This document shows positions 6,443 to 19,667 of a stretch of 64,000 bases of DNA, one piece after another. This stretch comes from Bullifex porci. Lineage in GTDB: Bacteria; Spirochaetota; Spirochaetia; Sphaerochaetales; Sphaerochaetaceae. The notes beneath the pieces were generated by a model. That model saw nothing but the letters and a program-made list of their open reading frames with translations. It had not been told where the DNA came from and made no database searches. Where the stretch lies: the NCBI RefSeq assembly GCF_009695635.1, contig NZ_VUNN01000001.1:124001-188000 (forward strand), written 5' to 3'. Position 1 is the first letter of the stretch; each line of letters starts with the position of its first letter. The position numbers and the translations under genes were made by a program.

Positions 6443-6466
6443 TCTAGTTAGTTAACAATTATTAAT

Positions 6467-6505
6467 AACGTAGTAGTAGATTTTCCTATTACTACGTTTT
6501 TTTTT
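6467..6505 (+). terminator. rho-independent terminator of rplU-rpmA
   Basis: AACGTAGTAGTAG pairs with CTATTACTACGTT (one G-T wobble) across a short loop, followed by a run of nine T. It separates the ribosomal operon from the surface-protein promoter just downstream. Confidence 0.9.
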
Positions 6506-6526
6506 GCTAAAACGAAGTAAAAACTC

Positions 6527-6557
6527 TTGACAAAAGCATACCGGGGGGGGGTATTAC
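6527..6557 (+). promoter_or_regulatory. promoter with a nine-G tract in the -35/-10 spacer
   Basis: A consensus -35 box TTGACA (6527-6532) is followed by a 19-base spacer and a -10-like TATTAC (6552-6557). The spacer ends in nine consecutive G (6543-6551), which is extraordinary in this AT-rich sequence. Gain or loss of G by slipped-strand mispairing would change the spacer length; 17 bases would need seven G. It reads into the surface-protein operon starting at 6657. Poly-G tracts of this kind control outer-membrane protein genes in Treponema pallidum (established for TP0126 and tpr genes); its action here is inferred. Confidence 0.75.
6543..6551. repeat. homopolymeric G tract (9 G)
   Basis: Nine G in a row, the longest G or C run noticed in the window. 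It lies exactly between -35 and -10 elements, so it is a candidate contingency (phase-variation) locus. Its length may differ between cells or assemblies. Confidence 0.9.
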
Positions 6558-6656
6558 TAAACTAGGTAAAACCTTTGCCAAAGCAGATACTTAATGTATA
6601 TAGCTGTAGCCCGTAGGAGTAACATCCCACTGACTTAAATCATATATGGGGGAAGT

Positions 6657-7631
6657 ATGAAGAGAGTCATTTTACTTTTGTTTTATTTACTATTTTCATT
6701 AGCAATACTATGCGCTTCTACTGTATCCTTTGTCGTTCCAAGCAATATTAAAGCTTATTCTTATGATAAAGCTGTTAATTGCTCTATCCCTGAAAATAGA
6801 GTTGTTACAATTAATCTTACAAGCTCTGATGTAATTTACTTCACTGATAGTGATGGTAATGAGTTTTCTTCAAAAATATTTAAAACAAAAAAGAAAGCAG
6901 TTGATGCTTCCTTTAGCTGGAATATTAATAATAGTAATCTTCGTTATTCTTTAGATGGCTCAGAGCCAACTGAGATAAGTGATAATAAAGTATTACTTTC
7001 TAACTTTAAAACAAATAATTTATCTATCTTTACACTTGAAGAGCAAGGTAATGATGGTTCCTGGAATGAGAGGGGAAGAGTAGGCTTTTTGCCTGTAAAG
7101 GAAATAAATGATAAGAAGATATCCTTACGAGTTACAGCATCCCCATATAGTATAGCTATCTACGATTTTATTCATGGTCATAATATAAAGGATGCGAAGT
7201 ACCTTACTGTTACAAACTATGGCTATTCAATAGATAGTGAGCTTGGATACCAAATAAGTAAGAAAGCTTTACTTTATTTAGGTAGTGGATATGGCTACCA
7301 AATGAAGAAAGAAACAGTAATACCTTATGCCTTTAAGGTTACTTACTTTAAAGCTTATGGTGGCTTTGATTATAAGTTTTTAAACAAAAACAAAGTAACT
7401 TCATCTATTGGTATATTTGCTGGTGCCTTAATGGGTATTAATGCAAATGTTTATAGTATTAGCTCTTTACTTGGAGCTAGGCTTAGACTTGACTTAATAA
7501 TCAACTCACATCTTAGCTTTGGGCTGCAAACACGATTCATAGCATCCTATAGTAAAGCCGAAGATAAGTACTACTCATCCATGTCTTATTTTATCGACCC
7601 AATAGCACTTTCTGTAGATATAAGGTTTTAG
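6657..7631 (+). CDS. putative outer-membrane beta-barrel-like protein, exported, function unknown
   Basis: I do not recognise a named family. The 324-residue protein has a signal peptide (hydrophobic residues about 4-20, cleavage near LCAS) and an N-terminal beta-rich region (about 20-165). The C-terminal half alternates polar and hydrophobic residues with aromatic girdle residues and ends in ...LSVDIRF. A terminal Phe after alternating hydrophobics is typical of BAM-inserted barrels. A GGGGGAAG Shine-Dalgarno precedes the ATG. First gene of an operon with two large surface lipoproteins, behind the G-tract promoter, so expression is probably phase variable. It could instead be a periplasmic beta-sandwich protein. 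Confidence 0.75.
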   Translation: MKRVILLLFYLLFSLAILCASTVSFVVPSNIKAYSYDKAVNCSIPENRVVTINLTSSDVIYFTDSDGNEFSSKIFKTKKKAVDASFSWNINNSNLRYSLDGSEPTEISDNKVLLSNFKTNNLSIFTLEEQGNDGSWNERGRVGFLPVKEINDKKISLRVTASPYSIAIYDFIHGHNIKDAKYLTVTNYGYSIDSELGYQISKKALLYLGSGYGYQMKKETVIPYAFKVTYFKAYGGFDYKFLNKNKVTSSIGIFAGALMGINANVYSISSLLGARLRLDLIINSHLSFGLQTRFIASYSKAEDKYYSSMSYFIDPIALSVDIRF

Positions 7632-7643
7632 AGGGGTGTTAAG

Positions 7644-9596
7644 ATGATTAAAAAAGTACTTCTTTTACTATTATCAATTTTAATACTTTTAACTTCCTGC
7701 TCTGGAGAGCTAAACAATGTGAGTAAGGGTGAAAATGATGTTAACTACTTTATTTACCCATATTTAAAATTTACTCTCTCACCTGATAGAACCTACTATA
7801 TTGCATCGGTAGTTGAAGGTGCAAAACTCACTACTGTATCAGTTCCTGGGTATGTACATACAGACTTCGGTGCGATGCCAATTAAAGAGTTTGCAGGCTT
7901 TGAAAATATTAATGACTCAGTAAATCTTAAAGAGCTTACTCTTGATGTAAATGTAGAGAAGATTAAAGAAGGCTCCTTAGCTAAGGCAGAAAATCTAAGT
8001 ATTGTTAAAACTACTGGTGATAAGGATGGGCCTAAGTGGGCTAATCTTCCAACCTTAATGAAGAGTGGTTATCACTTTATTGGTTGGAAGGCTGGTAATA
8101 CTTTTGTTTACAATGGTATGCCAATTGATCCTAATAATAAGGATGCAGTTCCTGTTTGGGGTAAGCTAATTCATCATGCAGAAGTAAAAGCCTCATGTAC
8201 AACTAATGGTTCTATCGAATATTGGCAGTGTGATGATTGTAATAAAATCTTTACAGATAGCTATGCTCAAAACTCAGTTAATGATGTATCTGTTCCTGCT
8301 GTTGGACACTTCTATCCATTAGTATGGGTTGAGCCTACAGAACCAACTTGTCTAAGTCAAGGTAATATTGGCTATTTTAGATGTGACCGTTGTGGTGGTG
8401 CATTTAGTGATGAAAATGGAACACAAGAAATTAGCGATGTTACAATTCCTAAGGTTGATCACCATGTCTCTGATAATATACTTCATCAAAGTGAAACCCA
8501 CCACTGGTATCAGTGCATATGGTGTGGTACAGAAATTGATAAGAGCGAACACACTTGGAAGGATTGGGTAATAACAATACATGCAACACTTCACACTAAG
8601 GGTGAGAAATATCATGAGTGTAGTGTTTGTAATAAGAGAATAACAGTTGAAATTCCTGAACATGACCATATACCAGGTGTAATACTTGAAAAGCATGAGG
8701 CAACTTGTACTGAAGGTGCATACTACATAGAAAGGTGTGGAAATCCTGAGTGTGGTGAGAAAGTTCGCTTTGAAATAGAGAATGAACCAGCATTAGGCCA
8801 TATTGGTTATATAGTAAATTTTAAAGAGTCAACATGCCAGGAAGAAGGTATATTGCAGCACTTCCACTGTACACGCTGTAATCTAAACTTTGAAAATCAA
8901 TCTAGTGTAACACCTCTTAATAGTGTTGTAATTCCAAAGAAAAACCATGTCTTTAGTACAATATGGAGTTATTCTGAAACTGAACACTACCACTTATGTA
9001 TTAACTGTAATATAGCAAAGTCAAATGTTTCAAACCATGTTTATGATCAAGAAGTTACTACTACGGACTATCTAGTTTCATCAAGTACGTGTGAACATGC
9101 AAATATCTATAAATATAGTTGTATATGTGGAAAAGCCGGAAATAATACATTTACTTCAGGTGTTGTAGGAGACCATGAATACACAAAGTGTGTTTCCCTT
9201 GATTACCAATATCACCAAAAGGCTTGTAAATGGTGTGATGAAATTCTTCCTAATTCTAAGGAAAAGCATGTATTTGATGAAACAAAATGTAATAAGTGTG
9301 GCTACGAGGTAATTAATGGTTCTGGAGGCTTTACTCCAATAATAACTGACAAACGTCCACAGGCTCATCTTACTTATTCAAAAGAAGGAACAACTTTTAA
9401 TTTTACACTGGTTGATGATCGCCCAACTTATGCAATTGATGAGGTTAAATGGTATCTAGACGACAGACAGCAGGAAGAGACGGAATGGACTTTTTCTTTC
9501 ACTGCACCACATAAGATGACCTATAAGGTCCTTTGTGTTTATTCAAATGATTATGGTAAAGGTTCACAGACGATAGTTGTGAATGGAGGAATATAA
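7644..9596 (+). CDS. surface lipoprotein with about ten CxxC repeats
   Basis: A 650-residue lipoprotein (signal peptide with lipobox LTSC, Cys20). The N-terminal part resembles a leucine-rich-repeat-5 segment (around residues 75-125) and a Listeria-Bacteroides/InlB-B-type module (SGYHFIGWKAGNTF). From about 180 to 560 it has imperfect repeats with paired cysteines (CDDC, CDRC, CIWC, CSVC, CTRC, CINC, CKWC, CNKC and two variants), each accompanied by His such as GH, HxH or EHTW, suggesting metal-binding or redox knuckles. A beta-sandwich-like C-terminal domain follows (570-650). Twelve bases after the preceding gene, with GAGGGG as ribosome-binding site. Such repeats are common in gut-bacterial surface proteins; the function is unknown. 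Confidence 0.8.
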   Translation: MIKKVLLLLLSILILLTSCSGELNNVSKGENDVNYFIYPYLKFTLSPDRTYYIASVVEGAKLTTVSVPGYVHTDFGAMPIKEFAGFENINDSVNLKELTLDVNVEKIKEGSLAKAENLSIVKTTGDKDGPKWANLPTLMKSGYHFIGWKAGNTFVYNGMPIDPNNKDAVPVWGKLIHHAEVKASCTTNGSIEYWQCDDCNKIFTDSYAQNSVNDVSVPAVGHFYPLVWVEPTEPTCLSQGNIGYFRCDRCGGAFSDENGTQEISDVTIPKVDHHVSDNILHQSETHHWYQCIWCGTEIDKSEHTWKDWVITIHATLHTKGEKYHECSVCNKRITVEIPEHDHIPGVILEKHEATCTEGAYYIERCGNPECGEKVRFEIENEPALGHIGYIVNFKESTCQEEGILQHFHCTRCNLNFENQSSVTPLNSVVIPKKNHVFSTIWSYSETEHYHLCINCNIAKSNVSNHVYDQEVTTTDYLVSSSTCEHANIYKYSCICGKAGNNTFTSGVVGDHEYTKCVSLDYQYHQKACKWCDEILPNSKEKHVFDETKCNKCGYEVINGSGGFTPIITDKRPQAHLTYSKEGTTFNFTLVDDRPTYAIDEVKWYLDDRQQEETEWTFSFTAPHKMTYKVLCVYSNDYGKGSQTIVVNGGI

Positions 9597-9659
9597 CTAA
9601 GTTTTCAGTTGAGGGGATGTCATCCTCTTATGAAATAGAAATTAAAACAGGAGGATAAA

Positions 9660-12254
9660 ATGAAGAAATTATCCATTTTCTTATTAACAGTGTTGCTGAT
9701 AGCATCTCTGTTCGTATCATGTGATAACAGTCCTAAAGTGATGACTGATGAACATGTCAAAGTTACTTTTTCTGTTGAATCAGGAAGCAGGAGCCTCGGA
9801 TATGATATTGAATCAATACCAGACAGCAAGCTTCAGTGGTATTACACCGCAGAAAAGAGTAATACTAGTGATCCATTCAAATTTGGTGAAGTCGCAGATA
9901 AATCGGTTGCTCTTGGTGAGGAAATAACCTTTTCTCAGGGACTTTGGGATTTCACTTTGTACGCAAAGAGGACAGATGTTGCTGGTGAGCCGCCTATTGT
10001 ATATTACGGTACTTCATCTGACGTATTAATTACTCGTGCTGACAGTCCTGTTCCAATTTACATTCAAGTTTCTTCAAGCACTGGAGCAACTGGTACTTTA
10101 GTACTTAATAATGTAAGTATTAAAACATATGCAGGCTCAGGAACTCATGTAACATCTTCCGTTAAGGCTAACACAGCTGTCATCAAGAACTCTTCAGGAG
10201 TAATAATTGATACTTTGAATTTATCAGACGGTTCAGGAACATATAACAACTTATCTGCGGGTAACTATAGTGTAGTAGTAAAGTATTGCAATACCAATGG
10301 TAACGTTGAAAATGCTTCAGAGGAAATCTTTATTACAGTTTGGAGTGGTAGAACAACCACAATCAGTGGTAGTATTGACGAGATTACAGGAAGCGGTACA
10401 ATTGGAGCCTACTATACTGAAACTATAACCAACACAATTGATAAAAATACTATACCTGTATTTGATGCAAATGTTGCTCCTGCAAACAACGAAACTACTT
10501 CAGAAAACTCTACTACAGTAGCATTCAACGCAGGCAAATTGGTTGCCACAGATGACTCTAAAACTGTCTCTCTGGAAGTGTCTGTAAAAGATATTGAAGC
10601 GGCAGGGAGTGATAGCACATTTACAGTTGAAGGAAATCAAAGTGCTGTAGCTGGTATTTCACTGAACCTTAAAGTTGGAGAAGAAGAGAAAACTGGTGAA
10701 TTTGGTGATGCTGTAATTACTACATATATTGTAAAAGGTCTTACATCTGTTAGTGTTAAGTATAATGGAACAGACTATACAACTGAACCAGGTGAGATTC
10801 AGGTTATTAATCAAGGTGAAACACCAAATGATGTCAACAATTATTATGAATCTTATACTGGTAAACTTGTATTCACTACAAACCACTTCTCTGAGTATTA
10901 TGTAGTTTCAAATTCTGTTGATGCATTAAATGTAACAACAAATACTGCATATGCAACTTTGGCAGACGCTATTAATGCTGTTCCTGTAAATGCGAATGAA
11001 ACTACTAATATTCTAATACTAAGAGACGTAGCAAATGCCGAAGGTCTGTCTGTAGCAAGTGGTAAAAACTTTGTTGTGGATTTTAATGGTCATACCTATA
11101 CAATAGTTGGACCAGGTGCTGGTTCTACAAACACTGAAACAAATGGCTTTCAGTTTCTAAGAAACTCAACTATTACTCTGAAAAATGGAAAAATTAATCT
11201 TTCAAAAAGCAACAGAGATGTTTTAAGAGTTATCCAAAATTATGCTAATTTAACATTAGAAGATTTGGAAATTGATGCAACGAATCAGTATTATTACAAA
11301 GATTATGTTATTTCGTTCTGTTGCGGAAATAATAAAATTATAGGAAATACTTCAATATATAGCAACGCGTCTTCTTTTAATCCAGATAAGTCAGTAATCT
11401 TTGATGTGTATGATTGGGCTGATGGAGGATATCATGGTGTAAATCTTACAATAGATACAACTGGGGATATAAGAGGCGTTGTTGAAATTGATCTTGCAGA
11501 GCAAGGCGATGAATGTGGCTCATATTTCAAGCTTACTAATGGTAATGTTAATAAGGTCTCGATTACAGGTGGAATAATTAATAACCTTAATGAAATCAAC
11601 ACACCAAATATTGTGATTACTGGTGGGCAGTTCTCTACAGATCCATCACAATACGTTGATGCGTATTATACTGCAGTTGCTAATGATGGTAATACAAGCT
11701 GGACTGTAAGAAAAATGAATTACGAAGAATTAGCAAATGCCGGTTATGTAGCAAGATATTATGAATCATCATACTATAAAAGTATAACGGAAGCATTTTC
11801 TAATTATGGAAGTGGTATTCATCTTATTAACAATGCACAGGGAGCAATCAGCAGAACTGGTTATGTTCAATTATATTGTGATGATTACACCTTCGAAGGT
11901 ACTATATCCTGCACACCTACTCCAAATACTTCAGGTAATGTTAGTATCTATACTGGAACTGCAATTTTGAATAATATAGAGTGTTCATCAACCTTCTATT
12001 GTGGATCAAGCTCAAATTCACCAACTATAACTATAAAAGATGGTTCTATAAATAATTTAGAAGCTAGAAAGAATGCAAAAGTTATCATCGAGGGTGGCAC
12101 CTATACTGGTACAATAACACTAAATACTGGAGGAAATGGATCGCTAACAATTAAAGGTGGAACATTCTCAGCTGATCCAACCATTTATGTACCTGAAGGA
12201 TATGCTGCAACTTTTAATGGCCAAACTTGGGAAGTCTCCGAACAATCCAACTAA
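9660..12254 (+). CDS. large surface lipoprotein with beta-helix-like C-terminal region
   Basis: An 864-residue lipoprotein (lipobox LFVSC). Residues 30-420 are beta-rich, with a segment ending NHFSEYYVV as seen at the end of domains in many gut-bacterial surface proteins. A module near 425 (AYATLADAINAVPV) starts a right-handed beta-helix-like region with recurrent ITGG/IKGG turns. Two related repeats, GGQFSTDPSQYV and GGTFSADPTIYV, occur, the second closing the protein. Such architectures mediate adhesion or glycan contact; no catalytic residues could be assigned. Base usage is less biased to the genome's favoured codons than in neighbours, which may indicate transfer or rapid evolution. Preceded by AGGAGG; 63 bases after the CxxC lipoprotein. 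Confidence 0.8.
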   Translation: MKKLSIFLLTVLLIASLFVSCDNSPKVMTDEHVKVTFSVESGSRSLGYDIESIPDSKLQWYYTAEKSNTSDPFKFGEVADKSVALGEEITFSQGLWDFTLYAKRTDVAGEPPIVYYGTSSDVLITRADSPVPIYIQVSSSTGATGTLVLNNVSIKTYAGSGTHVTSSVKANTAVIKNSSGVIIDTLNLSDGSGTYNNLSAGNYSVVVKYCNTNGNVENASEEIFITVWSGRTTTISGSIDEITGSGTIGAYYTETITNTIDKNTIPVFDANVAPANNETTSENSTTVAFNAGKLVATDDSKTVSLEVSVKDIEAAGSDSTFTVEGNQSAVAGISLNLKVGEEEKTGEFGDAVITTYIVKGLTSVSVKYNGTDYTTEPGEIQVINQGETPNDVNNYYESYTGKLVFTTNHFSEYYVVSNSVDALNVTTNTAYATLADAINAVPVNANETTNILILRDVANAEGLSVASGKNFVVDFNGHTYTIVGPGAGSTNTETNGFQFLRNSTITLKNGKINLSKSNRDVLRVIQNYANLTLEDLEIDATNQYYYKDYVISFCCGNNKIIGNTSIYSNASSFNPDKSVIFDVYDWADGGYHGVNLTIDTTGDIRGVVEIDLAEQGDECGSYFKLTNGNVNKVSITGGIINNLNEINTPNIVITGGQFSTDPSQYVDAYYTAVANDGNTSWTVRKMNYEELANAGYVARYYESSYYKSITEAFSNYGSGIHLINNAQGAISRTGYVQLYCDDYTFEGTISCTPTPNTSGNVSIYTGTAILNNIECSSTFYCGSSSNSPTITIKDGSINNLEARKNAKVIIEGGTYTGTITLNTGGNGSLTIKGGTFSADPTIYVPEGYAATFNGQTWEVSEQSN

Positions 12255-12292
12255 TTCTTAATGTTGCCCCTCAGCATTTAGGATAAAATCTT

Positions 12293-12324
12293 TCTCCCTT
12301 GGTTTCTATGTAAGCCAAGGGAGA
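12293..12324 (+). terminator. hairpin after the surface operon
   Basis: A perfect 10-base stem TCTCCCTTGG / CCAAGGGAGA with a 12-base loop lies 39 bases after the stop codon. Only a weak T-rich tail (TTATCATCTTA) follows, so it may be a terminator or a 3'-stabilising hairpin. Confidence 0.65.
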
Positions 12325-12662
12325 TTATCATCTTAGTTAATTCTTTGGATTAATATCTCTTCATCACAACCACATATCATGTTTAAGTCACCTTGTGGGT
12401 TTAGAATTTATTCCTTATGCATAAAATTTACTTTTTGGATTAGAACTTAAATTTGAATTGTCTTTGCATTAATTGAAACAGCAATTTCTTAATTGATAGG
12501 AATATGTTAATTACAAAGAGTTTTAGTGTTTTATGAAATATAATATTCTAGATAAGGTTTTTAAGTAATTTTTTTTCTATTACTTAGGATTTATTGTTTA
12601 TTGTGAAAATAGTTTTTGTGCAAGTTTGTTGCATATATATACGGAATATTGCATAGAGATAA

Positions 12663-12692
12663 TTGAATATAAGAGTGGTTTTGTAGTATATT
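12663..12692 (+). promoter_or_regulatory. putative tctC promoter
   Basis: TTGAAT (12663-12668), 18-base spacer, TATATT (12687-12692). Transcription would start only about 15 bases before the ATG, giving a very short leader that contains the AGGGAGGT ribosome-binding site. Confidence 0.5.
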
Positions 12693-12713
12693 ATCCCCCT
12701 AGGGAGGTAAGAA

Positions 12714-13736
12714 ATGAAGAAATCACTTATCGTATTATTAACTTTATTAGTTGCACTCAGCTCCCTTTTTGCTCAAGGCGCTGCTGAAGCTGCAAATACT
12801 TATCCGGAAAAAGCTATCACCATGATTATCCCTTATGGAGCTGGTGGTACTACAGACGTATCAGGAAGAAAGTTCGCAGCTCTTCTTTCTAAGGAACTTG
12901 GCGTAGCCGTTACTGTTGTTAACCAGGGTGGTGCTTCAGGTTCTATTGGTTGTCAGGCTGCACTTGATGCAAATCCTGATGGTTATACTGTACTCTTTAC
13001 AGCTGAAAGCCTTGGAACTCAGAGAGTAATGGGCTTAACAAATCTTAGCTATGATGATTACAAAATCATTTCAACAATGGTAAATGATCCAAAGGTTCTC
13101 GTTGTTGCAAAGGATAGTAAATATAATACACTCGCAGACCTATTAGCTGACATGAAGGCTAACCCAGGTAAGATTAAGATGAGCTACACTGGACCTGGTG
13201 GATCTGGTCACGTTCAGGGACTTATCATGGAGAAGCTCGGTTACGTTCCAGCTTTAACTGCATACTCTTCAGGTGCTGATTGCTATCGTGCTGTTCTCTC
13301 TGGTGAGGTTGACTTTACTAACTCTAACATCTCAACAGTTAAGGCTTTAATCCAGAGTGGTGATTTAAAGCTCTTAGGTGTAAGCAGTAATGTAAAGCTT
13401 AGCATCTACCCAGATGCACCATTATTTGAAGAAGTAGATCCTAATGCTGCTCAGTATATGAAGAATGCTTTCACACCTCTCAACTTCCTCGTAAGCAACA
13501 AGGTAGATGATAGTGTTGTTGAAGTATTAAGAAATGCAACAAAGAAAGTTGTAGAAAGTGCTGAATGGAAGAGCTTTATTAAGGATAACGCTCTTGAAGA
13601 GCTCTATGTACAATATCCAACTGTAGAAGCTACTAAGGAGTTCTATAAGAACTGGGAAAGTATGGTAAGCTGGATGCTTTATGATGCAGGTGTAACAAAG
13701 TATTCTCCTGCTGACTTTGGTATTGCTAAACCTTGA
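12714..13736 (+). CDS. tctC: tripartite tricarboxylate transporter substrate-binding protein TctC
   Basis: Periplasmic binding protein of the Bug/TctC family (340 residues) that delivers a carboxylate, such as citrate or another organic acid, to the TctAB membrane complex. It has a signal peptide ending in SLFAQGAAEA, the family pattern IIPYGAGGTTDVSGR near residue 40, and NQGGASGSIG. It is followed by tctB and tctA, completing the transporter. A hairpin between tctC and tctB probably gives the binding protein higher expression. Substrate is not predictable because Bug proteins are functionally diverse. Confidence 0.93.
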   Translation: MKKSLIVLLTLLVALSSLFAQGAAEAANTYPEKAITMIIPYGAGGTTDVSGRKFAALLSKELGVAVTVVNQGGASGSIGCQAALDANPDGYTVLFTAESLGTQRVMGLTNLSYDDYKIISTMVNDPKVLVVAKDSKYNTLADLLADMKANPGKIKMSYTGPGGSGHVQGLIMEKLGYVPALTAYSSGADCYRAVLSGEVDFTNSNISTVKALIQSGDLKLLGVSSNVKLSIYPDAPLFEEVDPNAAQYMKNAFTPLNFLVSNKVDDSVVEVLRNATKKVVESAEWKSFIKDNALEELYVQYPTVEATKEFYKNWESMVSWMLYDAGVTKYSPADFGIAKP

Positions 13737-13756
13737 AGCTTTAGTCTTTAGCATTG

Positions 13757-13790
13757 ACCGCAGAGAAATAATAGTATCTGCGGTTAATAT
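13757..13790 (+). terminator. attenuating hairpin between tctC and tctB
   Basis: ACCGCAGA (13757-13764) pairs with TCTGCGGT (13777-13784), flanked by further A/T pairing and followed by TAATATTTTC. Probably partial termination, leaving the membrane genes at lower level. Confidence 0.65.
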
Positions 13791-13808
13791 TTTCTTTGGA
13801 GGTTTAAG

Positions 13809-14294
13809 TTGGAAGAAAAGAATAAAAAAATAAATCCAGTTCTTATTGAAGGCATCGTACTATGTGCTCTCTCTGTGCTTGGAATTATTTTTTCTATAAT
13901 TTGTCACTATGGCTTTAAGGTTGAATGGAAATTATCACCATATTTATTTCCATTATTTATTTCAATCATGCTATGTATGCTCTCTATTTCTCTCATACTT
14001 AGTAGCTTCTCAGGCCTAAAGGAAGCTAAAAGAGAGAAGGGTGATAGAAAAACATTTTTAATATTTTTATTAGAATGTGCAATTTATTTAATTGTACTAA
14101 AATATTTAGGCTTTTTAATTTCTACTATGCTTTTACTTGGTGCAATAGTTCACCTTCTTGGTGAGAAATCATGGTGGAAGATAATTTTAATAAGTGTAGT
14201 AACATCACTAATTATCTACTTCTTATTTGGTGTTTATTTGGGTGTTATGCTTCCTAAGGGTAAGCTTTTATATATGATAGGAATAAGGCTATGA
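13809..14294 (+). CDS. tctB: tripartite tricarboxylate transporter small membrane subunit TctB
   Basis: A 161-residue protein with four predicted membrane helices, the usual size and topology for TctB, the poorly conserved small permease subunit. It starts at a TTG codon with a good GGAGG 6-10 bases upstream; no nearer ATG fits. Its end overlaps tctA by four bases (ATGA), indicating translational coupling. The assignment rests mainly on topology and position between tctC and tctA. Confidence 0.88.
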   Translation: MEEKNKKINPVLIEGIVLCALSVLGIIFSIICHYGFKVEWKLSPYLFPLFISIMLCMLSISLILSSFSGLKEAKREKGDRKTFLIFLLECAIYLIVLKYLGFLISTMLLLGAIVHLLGEKSWWKIILISVVTSLIIYFLFGVYLGVMLPKGKLLYMIGIRL

Positions 14295-15778
14295 GCTTAA
14301 ATTATATGATTCATTACTTTGCAGATCCAAGATTTATATTATTAGTACTCCTTGGCTCTGTGCTTGGTCTATTTATTGGTGCTATTCCAGGTCTTTCAGT
14401 TACAATGGCTACAGCCTTATTAGTTTCTGTTACCTATTCCTGGGGAACCTCTGATGCTATGGCTATGATCATGGGTCTCTATGTAGTTGGAGTATTCTCT
14501 GGAGCTTTATCTGCAATATTAATTAATATACCAGGTGCTCCAAGCTCTGTTGTTACAGCCTTTGATGGCTATCCATTAGCAAAAAGAGGGGAAGCATATA
14601 AATCATTAAAGTATGCAACTATATACTCATTTATTGGCTCAGTATTTGGCTTTATAGCTCTTTGGCTACTATCTGGTCCTATTTCAAATATCGCTCTAAA
14701 GTTCCATCCGATTGATTACTTCCTCCTCTCATTCTTTGGACTATTAGCGGTTGGTAGCTTAACTAGTAAATCCTTTACTAAGGGGTTAATTAGCGCTGCT
14801 GTAGGCTTACTAATTGCAATGGTTGGTATGGATAGTGTTATGGGACGCCCAAGACTAACTCTTGGAATTAGAGCCTTGCAGGGTGGTATTAACGTTGTAC
14901 CAGCTCTAGTTGGATTATTTGGTATGACAGAGGTACTCTCATCTATAATGCAAAAGAAGATGGGTGCAGAGGTTAGTGAGATGAAGAATGAGAAGGTGCC
15001 TATGAAGAATATATTAAAGCACTTTCCACTCTCTATGATTTACTCTGCAATAGGAACCTTCGTTGGTGCTCTCCCAGGAGCAGGTGGCCCTGTTGCTTCC
15101 TTCTTAGCTTATTCAACAGCTCAAAAGGTTGTCAAAAAGCCTTCACGTGAGTTTTGTGATGGAGCAGTTGAAGGTATTGTAGCTAGTGAGAGTAGTAATA
15201 ATGCATGTATCGGTGGTGCTTTAATTCCTATGCTAACCTTAGCTGTTCCAGGTGATGCAGTAACAGCTATTATATTAAGTGTATTTATAGTACATGGAAT
15301 GCAGCCAGGACCACTCTTTATTAAGACTCAGCCTGATATGTTTGCATCTGTATTAGCAGGCGGCTTCTTAGGATGTGTATTTTTATTAATTCTTGGACTA
15401 TTAGTTGCTCCAAAGCTTAGTAAGCTAATTCTAGTTCCAAAGAGAATACTCCTTCCTATAGTTACTGTTCTTTGTATTATTGGTAGCTTTGCTTGTAACA
15501 ATAGAATCTTTGATGTTGTCTTAATGTTTATCTTTGGTTTAATTGGATACTTTATGAGAAAGCATGATTACCCAACAGCTCCAATGGTTCTTGCTATAGT
15601 TTTAGGCTCAATGATGGATTCTAACTTTAGAAGAACAGTATCTCTTCTTGAAAGTGAGGAGCATAAGATAGCATACCTATTCTCAAGTCCAATTACTGTT
15701 ATCCTTTTTGCAGTTACTGTGCTTACTTTAATTTTCAGTATTCCTGCAGTTCAAAGGTTATTTAAGAAGAAAAAATAA
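14291..15778 (+). CDS. tctA: tripartite tricarboxylate transporter large membrane subunit TctA
   Basis: A 495-residue polytopic protein with about 11-12 helices, the cation-coupled permease of the TTT system. The family signatures GAIPGLSVTMATALL near residue 30 and GALPGAGGPVASFLAY near residue 260 are the two inverted-repeat loops. Translationally coupled to tctB, and followed by a clear terminator at 15796-15828, so tctCBA is a complete operon. No two-component regulator (tctDE) is present. Confidence 0.95.
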   Translation: MSLNYMIHYFADPRFILLVLLGSVLGLFIGAIPGLSVTMATALLVSVTYSWGTSDAMAMIMGLYVVGVFSGALSAILINIPGAPSSVVTAFDGYPLAKRGEAYKSLKYATIYSFIGSVFGFIALWLLSGPISNIALKFHPIDYFLLSFFGLLAVGSLTSKSFTKGLISAAVGLLIAMVGMDSVMGRPRLTLGIRALQGGINVVPALVGLFGMTEVLSSIMQKKMGAEVSEMKNEKVPMKNILKHFPLSMIYSAIGTFVGALPGAGGPVASFLAYSTAQKVVKKPSREFCDGAVEGIVASESSNNACIGGALIPMLTLAVPGDAVTAIILSVFIVHGMQPGPLFIKTQPDMFASVLAGGFLGCVFLLILGLLVAPKLSKLILVPKRILLPIVTVLCIIGSFACNNRIFDVVLMFIFGLIGYFMRKHDYPTAPMVLAIVLGSMMDSNFRRTVSLLESEEHKIAYLFSSPITVILFAVTVLTLIFSIPAVQRLFKKKK

Positions 15779-15795
15779 GGGTTTTAATATTCTCT

Positions 15796-15828
15796 AAGTC
15801 ATATCAATTAGATGGTATGACTTTTTTT
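15796..15828 (+). terminator. terminator of tctCBA
   Basis: AAGTCATA (15796-15803) pairs with TATGACTT (15816-15823), then a T run. Confidence 0.85.
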
Positions 15829-15940
15829 ACAAAAAAGATAAAAAAATATCGATAAAATAGTAGTTATTTTATTCTGATAGTGATATAACATAAGTCAGCT
15901 AGTTAAAGCTAACTTATTTGTAATTTTTTGGAGGTCATGT

Positions 15941-17158
15941 ATGGCACGTTTTACATTACCAAGAGATTTATATCACGGTAAGGGTTCATTAGAAGCACTT
16001 AAGTCATTTAAAGGTGAAAGAGCAGTTATTTGTGTAGGTGGCGGCTCAATGAAGAGATTCGGTTTCTTAGATAGAGCAGTTAATTACTTAAAGGAAGCTG
16101 GAATGGAAGTAGAGCTCATTGAAGGTATTGAGCCAGATCCAAGTGTAGATACAGTAATGAAGGGCGCTGCAAAGATGCTCGAGTTCAAGCCAGACTGGAT
16201 TATTGCTATGGGCGGTGGATCTCCAATCGATGCTGCTAAGGCAATGTGGATTAAGTATGAATATCCAGAAATCACATTCGAAGAGATGTGTAAGGTATTC
16301 GGTATTCCATCACTCAGAAAGAAGGCTCACTTCTGTGCTATTTCTTCAACATCAGGTACAGCTACTGAGGTAACAGCTTTCTCAATTATTACAGATTATG
16401 CTAAGGGTATTAAGTATCCTATTGCTGACTTCGAAATTACTCCAGATGTAGCAATTGTAGACCCAGATCTCGCAGAGACAATGCCTAAGAAGCTTGTTGC
16501 TCATACAGGTATGGATGCTATGACACATGCTATAGAAGCATATGTTTCAACAGCTAACTGTGAGTTCACAGATCCTCTTGCAATCCACGCAATTGAGATG
16601 ATCCAGAACGACCTCGTTGATTCCTACAATGGTGATATGGCAGCTAGAGATAGAATGCACTATGCACAGTGTCTCGCTGGTCAGGCATTCAGTAATGCTC
16701 TTCTCGGTATTGTTCACTCAATGGCTCACAAGACTGGTGCTATCTTCCAGGATTATGGTGCACACATCATCCATGGTGCAGCTAATGCTATGTACCTTCC
16801 AAAGGTAATTGCATTCAATGCTAAGGATCCAGTTGCTAAGAAGCGCTATGGTGTAATTGCTGATTACATGAAGCTTGGTGGTAAGGATGATGATGAGAAG
16901 GTTAAGCTCTTAATCGCATACCTCAGAAAGATGAATGATGATCTTAACATCCCACACTGCATTAAGAACTATGGTGCAGACAGCTATCCATGTGAGCAGG
17001 GCTTCGTTCCAGAGAGTGTATTCCTTGAAAGAGTTGAGGATATCGCTAAGAACGCTCTCTTAGATGCTTGTACAGGTTCTAACCCACGTCAGCCAAGCCA
17101 GGAAGAGATGGTTAAGCTCCTCAAGTGCTGCTACTACGATACAGAGGTTGATTTCTAA
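15941..17158 (+). CDS. iron-containing alcohol dehydrogenase
   Basis: A 405-residue group III (Fe-type) alcohol dehydrogenase that reduces an aldehyde with NAD(P)H. The N-terminal dinucleotide fold has GGGSPIDAAKAM. The C-terminal domain carries the metal ligands in HTGMDAMTHAIEAYVS and HSMAHKTGAIF...HGAANA, which bind Fe or Zn. Strong Shine-Dalgarno (TTGGAGG) and strongly biased codons suggest high expression, as expected of a fermentative ethanol or butanol dehydrogenase. It is monocistronic, with its own terminator (17181-17202). nfnAB follow, so the two could cooperate in balancing NADH/NADPH. The exact substrate is unknown. Confidence 0.93.
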   Translation: MARFTLPRDLYHGKGSLEALKSFKGERAVICVGGGSMKRFGFLDRAVNYLKEAGMEVELIEGIEPDPSVDTVMKGAAKMLEFKPDWIIAMGGGSPIDAAKAMWIKYEYPEITFEEMCKVFGIPSLRKKAHFCAISSTSGTATEVTAFSIITDYAKGIKYPIADFEITPDVAIVDPDLAETMPKKLVAHTGMDAMTHAIEAYVSTANCEFTDPLAIHAIEMIQNDLVDSYNGDMAARDRMHYAQCLAGQAFSNALLGIVHSMAHKTGAIFQDYGAHIIHGAANAMYLPKVIAFNAKDPVAKKRYGVIADYMKLGGKDDDEKVKLLIAYLRKMNDDLNIPHCIKNYGADSYPCEQGFVPESVFLERVEDIAKNALLDACTGSNPRQPSQEEMVKLLKCCYYDTEVDF

Positions 17159-17180
17159 TAATTACCTAAATTAAAGACTT

Positions 17181-17202
17181 AAGGCGCCGTTTGGCGCCTT
17201 TT
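17181..17202 (+). terminator. terminator of the alcohol dehydrogenase gene
   Basis: AAGGCGCC-GTTT-GGCGCCTT perfect GC-rich hairpin followed by TT. Confidence 0.85.
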
Positions 17203-17280
17203 GTCAGTTTACTATTTTTATTTTTTTTGCTAAAAAATAATTACAAATTAAATATTTAACTATCAAAAGAGACGGATAAA

Positions 17281-18129
17281 ATGTACAAAATTGCAAGAAA
17301 AAAAGTATTAAATCCAACAGTAACACAGATGGAAATTGTTGCTCCTCTTGTTGCTGCTAAAGCTAAGCCAGGTCAGTTCATTATTCTTCGTGTTGATGAA
17401 GATGGTGAAAGAATCCCTCTTACAGTTGCTGGCTGCAACCAGGAAGATGGAACAGTAAAGATTATCTTCCAAATCGTTGGTGCAACTACTGCAAAGCTCA
17501 ACCAGAAGGAAGAGGGTGAGTATATCCAGGACTTCGTAGGTCCACTTGGAGTTGCTACTCATACAGAGGGTATTAAGAAGGTATGTATCATCGGTGGTGG
17601 TGTAGGTTGTGCAATTGCAATGCCTGTTGCTCAGGAATTTCACAGACTTGGTGCAGATGTTACTTCAATCATTGGTTTTAGAAATAAGGACCTCTTAATT
17701 TGTGAAGATGAATTTAGAGAGGCTTCAAATAAGCTTGTTGTTATGTCTGATGATGGTTCATATGGTAGACATGGTAATGTAACAGTTCCTCTTAAGGAAA
17801 TGCTTGAAGCTGGTGAGAAGTTCGATTTAATCATCACAATTGGACCAGTAATTATGATGAAGTTCGTAGTTGCTACAGCTAAGCCATTTGGTATTCCTGT
17901 AACAGTATCAATGAACCCAATCATGATCGATGGAACAGGTATGTGTGGTGGCTGTCGTCTTACATTAAACCAGGATGGCAAGAAGGTAACAAAGTTTGCT
18001 TGTGTTGATGGTCCTGATTTCAATGGCTACGAAGTTGACTTCGATGAAGCTATGAGCAGAGGTAGAATGTACTCTGATTTCGAACGCCATGCATATGGTG
18101 AAGCATGTAACCTATTTAAAAAAGCTTGA
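17281..18129 (+). CDS. nfnA: NADH-dependent reduced ferredoxin:NADP+ oxidoreductase subunit A (NfnA/SudB)
   Basis: Small subunit (282 residues) of the flavin-based electron-bifurcating transhydrogenase, which reversibly couples NADPH oxidation to reduction of NAD+ and ferredoxin. The FAD-binding motif RIPLT is at 44-48 and the nucleotide loop IIGGGVGC at 103-110. The C-terminal [2Fe-2S] site carries Asp217, Cys222, Cys225 and Cys241; one Asp plus three Cys ligands is the unusual pattern described for NfnA. Followed 13 bases later by nfnB. Related proteins are dihydroorotate dehydrogenase electron-transfer subunits (PyrK), but the partner gene decides for Nfn. Confidence 0.9.
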   Translation: MYKIARKKVLNPTVTQMEIVAPLVAAKAKPGQFIILRVDEDGERIPLTVAGCNQEDGTVKIIFQIVGATTAKLNQKEEGEYIQDFVGPLGVATHTEGIKKVCIIGGGVGCAIAMPVAQEFHRLGADVTSIIGFRNKDLLICEDEFREASNKLVVMSDDGSYGRHGNVTVPLKEMLEAGEKFDLIITIGPVIMMKFVVATAKPFGIPVTVSMNPIMIDGTGMCGGCRLTLNQDGKKVTKFACVDGPDFNGYEVDFDEAMSRGRMYSDFERHAYGEACNLFKKA

Positions 18130-18142
18130 GGAGATTTGAGAG

Positions 18143-19555
18143 ATGCCTATTAATCCAAAGAAACATGAGATGCCTACTCAGGCTCCAGAAGTTAGAGCTC
18201 ATAACTTTAAGGAAGTAGCTCTTGGCTATGATGTTCAGACTGCTGTAGATGAAGCAAGCAGATGTTTAAATTGTAAGAACAAGCCATGTGTACAGGGCTG
18301 TCCAGTAAATATTAGTATCCCAGAGTTTATTACACACGTAAAGAACCAGGATTTTGAAGGTGCATATGAGGTAATTACTCGTTCTTCATCTCTTCCTGCT
18401 GTTTGTGGTCGTGTATGTCCTCAGGAAACACAGTGTGAGAGTAAGTGTACTCTTGGTATTAAGTTTGAGCCAGTTGGAATTGGTCGTTTGGAGAGATTCG
18501 TTGCTGATTACCACAATGCAAATTGTAAGGCAGAGGTTCACGTTCCTGAGCAGAATGGCCATAAGGTAGCAGTTGTCGGTTCAGGTCCTTCAGGCTTAAC
18601 CTGTGCAGGTGATTTAGCTAAGAAGGGTTATAAGGTTGCTGTATTTGAAGCTCTTCATACAGCTGGTGGTGTACTTGTTTATGGTATTCCTGAGTTCCGT
18701 CTCCCAAAGTCAATCGTAGCTAAGGAAGTTGATGGCCTAAAGGCTCTTGGTGTTGATATCGACACAAACGTAGTAATTGGTAAGACTCTTACTATTGATG
18801 AGCTTTTTGGTATGGGCTATGAGGCTGTATTTGTTGGTTCAGGTGCTGGTCTTCCTAACTTCATGAACATCCCAGGTGAAGCTCTAAAGGGTGTATATTC
18901 AGCTAATGAGTTCTTAACAAGATCTAATCTTATGAAGTCTTTCAAAGATCATCCAGATACTCCTATCATGAAGGGTGGTAAGGTTGCAGTAGTTGGTGGC
19001 GGTAACGTAGCTATGGATGCTGCTAGAACAGCTTTACGTCTTGGCGCTGAAAAGGTATACATCGTTTATAGAAGATCCTTAAAGGAATTACCTGCTAGAA
19101 AGGAAGAGGTTGAGCACGCAATGGAAGAGGGTATCGACTTCAGACTTCTTAACAACCCAGTTGAGATCCTTGGCTACAACAATGCTGATGACCCACGTGA
19201 TCCAAAGAATGGCTTCGTTACTGGTATTAAGTGTATTAAGATGGAGCTTGGTGAGCCAGATGCTAAGGGTAGAAGAAGACCTGTTCCAATTGAGGGCAGT
19301 GAGTTCGTTCTCGATGTAGACACAGTTATTATGGCTATTGGTACTAGCCCAAACCCATTAATCAAGAATACAACTAAGGGCCTTGAGGTTAATGCTCATG
19401 GTGGTATCATTGTTAATGAGGATGGTCTAACTAGCCGTGAGGGTGTTTATGCAGGTGGTGATGCTGTAACAGGTGCTGCTACAGTTATTTCTGCAATGGG
19501 AGCTGGTAAGGTAGCTGCTAAGGCTATTGATGAGTTCCTCTCAAAGAAGAACTAA
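18143..19555 (+). CDS. nfnB: NADH-dependent reduced ferredoxin:NADP+ oxidoreductase subunit B (NfnB/SudA)
   Basis: Large subunit (470 residues), homologous to the glutamate synthase small chain. N-terminal cysteines Cys41/44/49/53 and Cys88/92/98/102 form two [4Fe-4S] sites. The FAD-binding GSGPSG is at 146-151, and the NADPH-binding Rossmann motif GGGNVAMDAA lies near residue 285. The bifurcating FAD is in this subunit. No glutamate synthase large chain is present and nfnA precedes directly, so NfnB is favoured over GltD. GAGGAGATTTGAGAG before the ATG supplies the ribosome-binding site. The operon ends at the terminator 19574-19603. Confidence 0.92.
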   Translation: MPINPKKHEMPTQAPEVRAHNFKEVALGYDVQTAVDEASRCLNCKNKPCVQGCPVNISIPEFITHVKNQDFEGAYEVITRSSSLPAVCGRVCPQETQCESKCTLGIKFEPVGIGRLERFVADYHNANCKAEVHVPEQNGHKVAVVGSGPSGLTCAGDLAKKGYKVAVFEALHTAGGVLVYGIPEFRLPKSIVAKEVDGLKALGVDIDTNVVIGKTLTIDELFGMGYEAVFVGSGAGLPNFMNIPGEALKGVYSANEFLTRSNLMKSFKDHPDTPIMKGGKVAVVGGGNVAMDAARTALRLGAEKVYIVYRRSLKELPARKEEVEHAMEEGIDFRLLNNPVEILGYNNADDPRDPKNGFVTGIKCIKMELGEPDAKGRRRPVPIEGSEFVLDVDTVIMAIGTSPNPLIKNTTKGLEVNAHGGIIVNEDGLTSREGVYAGGDAVTGAATVISAMGAGKVAAKAIDEFLSKKN

Positions 19556-19573
19556 TACTACTTCTTTTTAGAG

Positions 19574-19603
19574 ATGCCGGGATTATTATATTCCCGGCAT
19601 TTT
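19574..19603 (+). terminator. terminator of nfnAB
   Basis: ATGCCGGGA (19574-19582) pairs with TCCCGGCAT (19592-19600), followed by TTTT. Confidence 0.88.
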
Positions 19604-19667
19604 AAGTATGTGCTAGGAAAAGCAAAAAAAATCATATATATTTGACTATTGATTTAGGAGTTATTTA

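Follow-up and report, generated by a model that had tools for sequence, protein, structure and literature searches.

The question raised by this locus is whether a run of nine Gs in the genome of Bullifex porci, placed between a -35 and a -10-like element, acts as a phase-variation switch over a surface operon. The window, i.e., the whole stretch of DNA that was analysed, comprises 64,000 nucleotides. The site is very probably a phase-variable sigma70-type promoter of the kind known from TP0126 and porA. Strand slippage during replication would add Gs to or remove Gs from the G9 tract, the gain or loss would alter the distance between -35 and -10 and with it the transcription of the three-gene operon, and cells of one clone would differ reversibly in their surface make-up. 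The benefit would presumably be surface variation inside the host. A preliminary description had proposed such a poly-G spacer switch for this operon, and the comparison with related genomes supports it.

Promoter and operon anatomy

The features of the locus are as follows, all on the + strand:
6467-6505: rho-independent terminator of rplU-rpmA, 13-bp stem (6467-6498) and T9 (at 6497)
6527-6532: -35 element TTGACA, perfect consensus, read directly; the same hexamer is present at 26 sites of the genus
6533-6542: non-G arm of the spacer, AAAGCATACC, 10 bp, read directly
6543-6551: G9 tract in direct contact with the -10, proposed to be the slippage (contingency) element, read directly
6552-6557: -10-like TATTAC, weak (4 of 6 positions compared with TATAAT, without the final T), read directly
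6648-6655: Shine-Dalgarno-like GGGGGAAG ahead of ORF1, read directly
6657-7631: ORF1, 324 aa, secreted, with a signal peptide and the C-terminus ...VDIRF, possibly a barrel of the outer membrane
7644-9596: ORF2, lipoprotein of 650 aa with repeated H/W/CxxC motifs (lipobox)
9660-12254: ORF3, lipoprotein of 864 aa (lipobox)

The elements named in the preliminary description, TTGACA, nine Gs, TATTAC and a spacer of 19 bp (10+9), are exact on direct reading. The homopolymer lies wholly inside the -35/-10 interval and the sites found in the genus are built alike. It is located about 40 bp downstream of the intrinsic terminator of rpmA, which isolates the switch from transcription coming from upstream, and 105 bp upstream of the first ATG (6657). 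The ten-base arm AAAGCATACC recurs in one relative, G037, ahead of G8. TATTAC is a weak -10 candidate at 19 bp, relatives mostly having TAnnnT at spacings of 13-22 bp, and it is missing the final T that is present in most of them. The poly-G promoter of the window is single-copy and the sole one of its kind in the genome. Rfam gave no match close to its threshold for the leader that follows the tract, and the folding of this leader was no better than that of shuffled sequences; as both tests were null, a riboswitch or structured leader was dropped.

The three ORFs are co-directional, separated by gaps of 12 bp (ORF1-ORF2) and 63 bp that are free of + strand terminators, and presumably form one transcript. 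The signal peptide of ORF1 and the lipoboxes of ORF2 and ORF3 mark the products as surface or secreted proteins, and the two large lipoproteins described earlier were recovered as ORF2 and ORF3. The single-sequence AlphaFold model of ORF1 has a mean pLDDT of 39.5, which is too poor to judge a barrel, and a search for a sequence relative of ORF1 in the PDB found none. Homologues of ORF1 in G008, G033 and G072 (31-39% identity) have a G-tract promoter directly upstream, with G counts and spacers that differ from those of the window, and the TTGACA G-tract promoter is absent upstream of the homologues in G004 and G029 and of a weak match in G030.

The operon is part of a segment of about 13 kb between rpmA and obgE (6443-19667), which also encodes a tripartite tricarboxylate-type transporter, an iron-type alcohol dehydrogenase and glutamate-synthase-like genes. 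In G006, rpmA is followed by a helicase-like gene in place of this segment.

Recurrence of the arrangement in relatives and beyond

Sixteen genomes of the genus were searched with TTGACA-N5-15-G7, leaving the bases after the tract unspecified and using the reversed pattern as control. The pattern was found at 26 distinct sites in 11 of the 16 genomes and the reversed pattern at none. At these unselected sites TA follows the tract at once in 25 of 26 cases and TAnnnT in 23 of 26, with spacers of 13-22 bp. In the family, the TAnnnT version was present in 44 of 139 genomes, mostly of the genera g1 and g10, with at most 13 sites each (reversed control 0); in a search unconditioned on the next bases, nine of about 160 listed sites have a base other than T after the tract. 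Across the Spirochaetota the pattern occurs in 67 of 393 genomes and 22 of 167 genera, reaching a maximum of 20 sites in G398, and the reversed pattern gave one match.

The genes downstream of the tracts were assigned by a simple rule-based signal classifier applied to the first ORF. In the genus this ORF encodes a lipoprotein at 23 of 26 sites and a protein with another signal peptide at the remaining three, so that all 26 are of the exported type; in the sister genus lipoproteins follow 62 of 69 tracts and other signal peptides four of 69. As background, the same classifier assigned three of the 55 ORFs of the window as lipoproteins, two of them in the poly-G operon. The proposed control of a surface operon is thus matched family-wide by the same architecture ahead of lipoprotein and secreted genes, and some homologues of ORF1 keep the promoter.

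On GTDB contigs at least 112 stretches from many phyla carry the pattern; among the matches listed, spacer lengths peak at 18-19 and at 16 bp, and of the 100 that were scored with the simple rules 71 have a first ORF with a signal peptide of the lipoprotein or another type. The matches include G-tract promoters of two cultured isolates from the gut, Massilimicrobiota timonensis An13 (L150) and Mediterraneibacter agrestimuris DSM 111629 (L215). TTGACA-N-G8+-TAnnnT stands ahead of signal-peptide genes in Clostridia, Bacilli, Alphaproteobacteria, Saccharibacteria and others (L138-L249). A convergent use of G-tract promoters in host-associated bacteria seems likely. The same pattern was also observed on 28 viral contigs of IMG/VR (L334-L361).

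Tract length, spacing and coding tracts

Tract lengths counted across related genomes, a part of the check named in the preliminary description, range from 7 to 17 Gs. In relatives, 13 promoter pairs with flanks of 95-100% identity were compared, mostly repeated copies within one genome or in sister species, and the number of Gs differs in eight of the 13; as most genomes are metagenome assemblies, some of these differences may be homopolymer miscounts. In G042, for example, G9 stands against G10 with all 102 flanking bases identical. Length differences between copies with identical flanks are the pattern that slippage would be expected to leave, and the tract of the window would by extension switch within its species.

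In the Spirochaetota families other than that of the window, the consensus directly behind the tract is TAwAAT, the sigma70 -10, where TA and the final T were imposed by the search and positions 3-5, as well as the lengths within wide limits, were free. In these families the G and non-G lengths of the spacer compensate (r = -0.50; permutation p = 5e-5, shuffled pairings, variance), short G tracts being combined with long non-G arms, which points to a constraint on spacing. Within the family of the window the two lengths are uncorrelated (r = -0.02) and a tight spacer optimum was dropped there for this reason. The sister genus most often has a spacing of 19 bp (10+9) and the genus of the window one of 16 bp; the 19 bp of the window therefore need not be an OFF state. 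In TP0126 of Treponema pallidum, the parallel drawn in the preliminary description, poly-G indeed lies between -35 and -10 and spacing is best at 17 bp (PMC7864442), which at the window site would mean G7. We infer that expression would be low with G9 (19 bp) and high with G7-G8 (17-18 bp).

The genome of the window also contains four other G runs of at least seven, two of them in a near-identical lipoprotein pair related to ORF3 (37% identity, E 3e-68):
L104 2741-2748 (G000:C1:87740): G8 in frame, 908 aa, ORF3 paralogue
L105 (G000:C4:5051-5057), minus strand: G7, frameshifted, stop after 45 aa, ORF3 paralogue
L102 3915-3923 (G000:C23:16914-16922): G9 close to the beginning of an ORF for a repeat protein, not in frame in the assembly
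L103 5360-5368 (G000:C12:195359-195367): G9 in frame in an ornithine-cyclodeaminase-like gene, named from sequence reading

The G8 and G7 paralogues look like a translational phase-variation pair, and the repeat-protein ORF encodes 20 aa as assembled and would be open for 870 aa with G8. As the length of such tracts decides the reading frame, the genome probably uses translational switching alongside that at the promoter. The ornithine-cyclodeaminase-like enzyme is an unexpected non-surface target of a G tract.

In the sister genus, copies that share a genome match completely or almost completely between the -35 and the codon of the lipobox cysteine and are wholly divergent thereafter; their upstream flanks and mature regions mostly resemble each other no more than unrelated sequences do (about 0.60, same alignment). 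G8, G9 and G11 occur among the cassettes of one genome. This unit looks like a module of promoter plus signal peptide joined to different lipoproteins:
L315, L317-L320 and L323 (G039); L276 and L282 (G046): cassette copies, mature proteins unrelated

Several copies are located at contig ends, which suggests recombining repeats. The promoter of the window belongs to no cassette set.

Alternative explanations and known systems

One alternative is that the tract serves a lipoprotein regulon as a fixed part of its promoters, be it as a binding site, through a G at -14 that makes an extended -10 contact or as a signal resembling a G-quadruplex, and that changes in its length are incidental. G9 is everywhere the most frequent length, in nearly all cases the tract directly adjoins the -10, and the poly-C equivalent was found in three of 393 Spirochaetota genomes compared with 67 of 393 for poly-G (the poly-C pattern being off by one spacer base); neither this position nor this strand is predicted by slippage alone. 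Lengths that span 7 to 17 and differ between copies with identical flanks, however, argue against a fixed element, as do the compensation of G and non-G lengths outside the family, which points to spacing, and the coding tracts of the same genome whose length sets the frame. We regard this explanation as unlikely. The strand bias contradicts a slippage-only view, according to which poly-C should be as frequent as poly-G. The rarity of poly-C together with the contact between tract and -10 suggests that the Gs also aid recognition, perhaps by constantly offering, like extended -10 promoters, a G at position -14, and such a contact would be compatible with slippage.

Read jointly, host-associated spirochaetes of several families and members of other phyla may share a dedicated class of G-tract promoters that forms genome-wide repertoires of switches for up to about 20 surface genes, with a functional role for the G strand and the -10 contact. 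This wider reading is tentative and we lean slightly against it. Its layout is TTGACA, an arm of 3-13 bases and a tract of G7-17 in contact with the -10, with the Gs nearly always on the same strand. If it is true, the switch would in one genus travel as the cassette from the -35 to the lipobox cysteine, and whole surface repertoires would be shuffled and independently toggled. The switch of the window also raises the mechanistic question of why the base is always G and why the tract always adjoins the -10.

A second alternative is that the promoter is a decayed, inactive relic and that the operon is transcribed from another start within the 105-bp leader. TATTAC is a poor -10, the promoter has no second copy in the genome and the leader is long, the distance from tract to start codon in relatives being usually about 20-45 bp. 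The -35 is nevertheless perfect and the G9 uninterrupted, where an unselected G9 in a genome of 36% GC should erode; G006 and G008 share long leaders, and on the + strand between tract and ORF1 no promoter-like site meeting the scan criteria is present. A relic is accordingly improbable, a shade more so than a fixed element.

G9 is the only G/C run of at least six in the 64-kb window (GC 0.358), and the whole genome of 2.42 Mb contains five G runs of at least seven. Dinucleotide shuffles gave 0.16 expected G8 matches compared with two seen, which overlap and both stem from the one G9, and three of 100 shuffles reached the observed count, so that finding G8+ somewhere in 64 kb is uncommon without being very rare. 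The G tract taken alone is just mildly improbable in 64 kb. As shuffling was indecisive for the run, the arrangement was tested instead. The improbability asserted in the preliminary description holds for the arrangement, in view of its recurrence in the genus with a reversed control of zero, and only mildly for the run by itself. A functionless chance homopolymer or assembly artefact is hardly credible, as TTGACA-N5-15-G7 recurs across the genus while its reversal gives no match, reversed controls elsewhere are near zero, and the -35, -10 and lipoprotein context returns in many genomes, single-contig chromosomes among them.

The phase-variable promoter preferred for the window site is of an already known kind; specialists would be interested rather in the strand bias, the cassette and the repertoire that extends across the family. 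Reporter or expression data stand behind the poly-G precedents TP0126 and tprL (PMC7864442) and the promoter homopolymers of porA and fetA (PMC3899988, PMC5320596). TP0126, an OmpW homologue, is likewise a spirochaete surface-protein promoter in which poly-G length sets the spacer (PMC7864442). It belongs to a different spirochaete lineage, whereas the class described here has its tract directly against a TAnnnT -10, and relatives repeat the architecture ahead of up to 20 genes per genome. The open-access literature yielded no report on phase variation in Sphaerochaeta or on this promoter class in gut spirochaetes. A switch known from a few pathogens would be extended to abundant uncultured gut spirochaetes, for which it offers a culture-free sequence signature of phase-variable surface genes and predicts mixed G counts at tens of loci per population in metagenome reads.

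The tprE, tprG, tprJ and tprL genes of T. pallidum also share variable poly-G in promoters of paralogous surface genes, and for tprE/G/J eight or fewer Gs are permissive (PMC7864442). The start of tprL is the fourth base after the tract, which places its tract outside the -35/-10 spacer, unlike here. Coding poly-G variation, as in Helicobacter canadensis and in Neisseria pilC (PMC2823697, PMC5320596), similarly relies on a slippage-prone G tract that turns genes ON or OFF; this kind is present in the ORF3 paralogues of the same genome and acts on frame, not on promoter spacing. In Neisseria meningitidis and N. gonorrhoeae, spacer homopolymers of porA (poly-T/poly-G) and fetA (poly-C) tune the transcription of outer-membrane proteins (PMC3899988, PMC5320596). 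These are few single-gene switches, in contrast to a lipoprotein repertoire with almost only poly-G. For porA the repeat has the form (T)nC(G)nT, and a similar T9G9 spacer was observed in one relative (L091 963, minus strand; G013:C1:16011).
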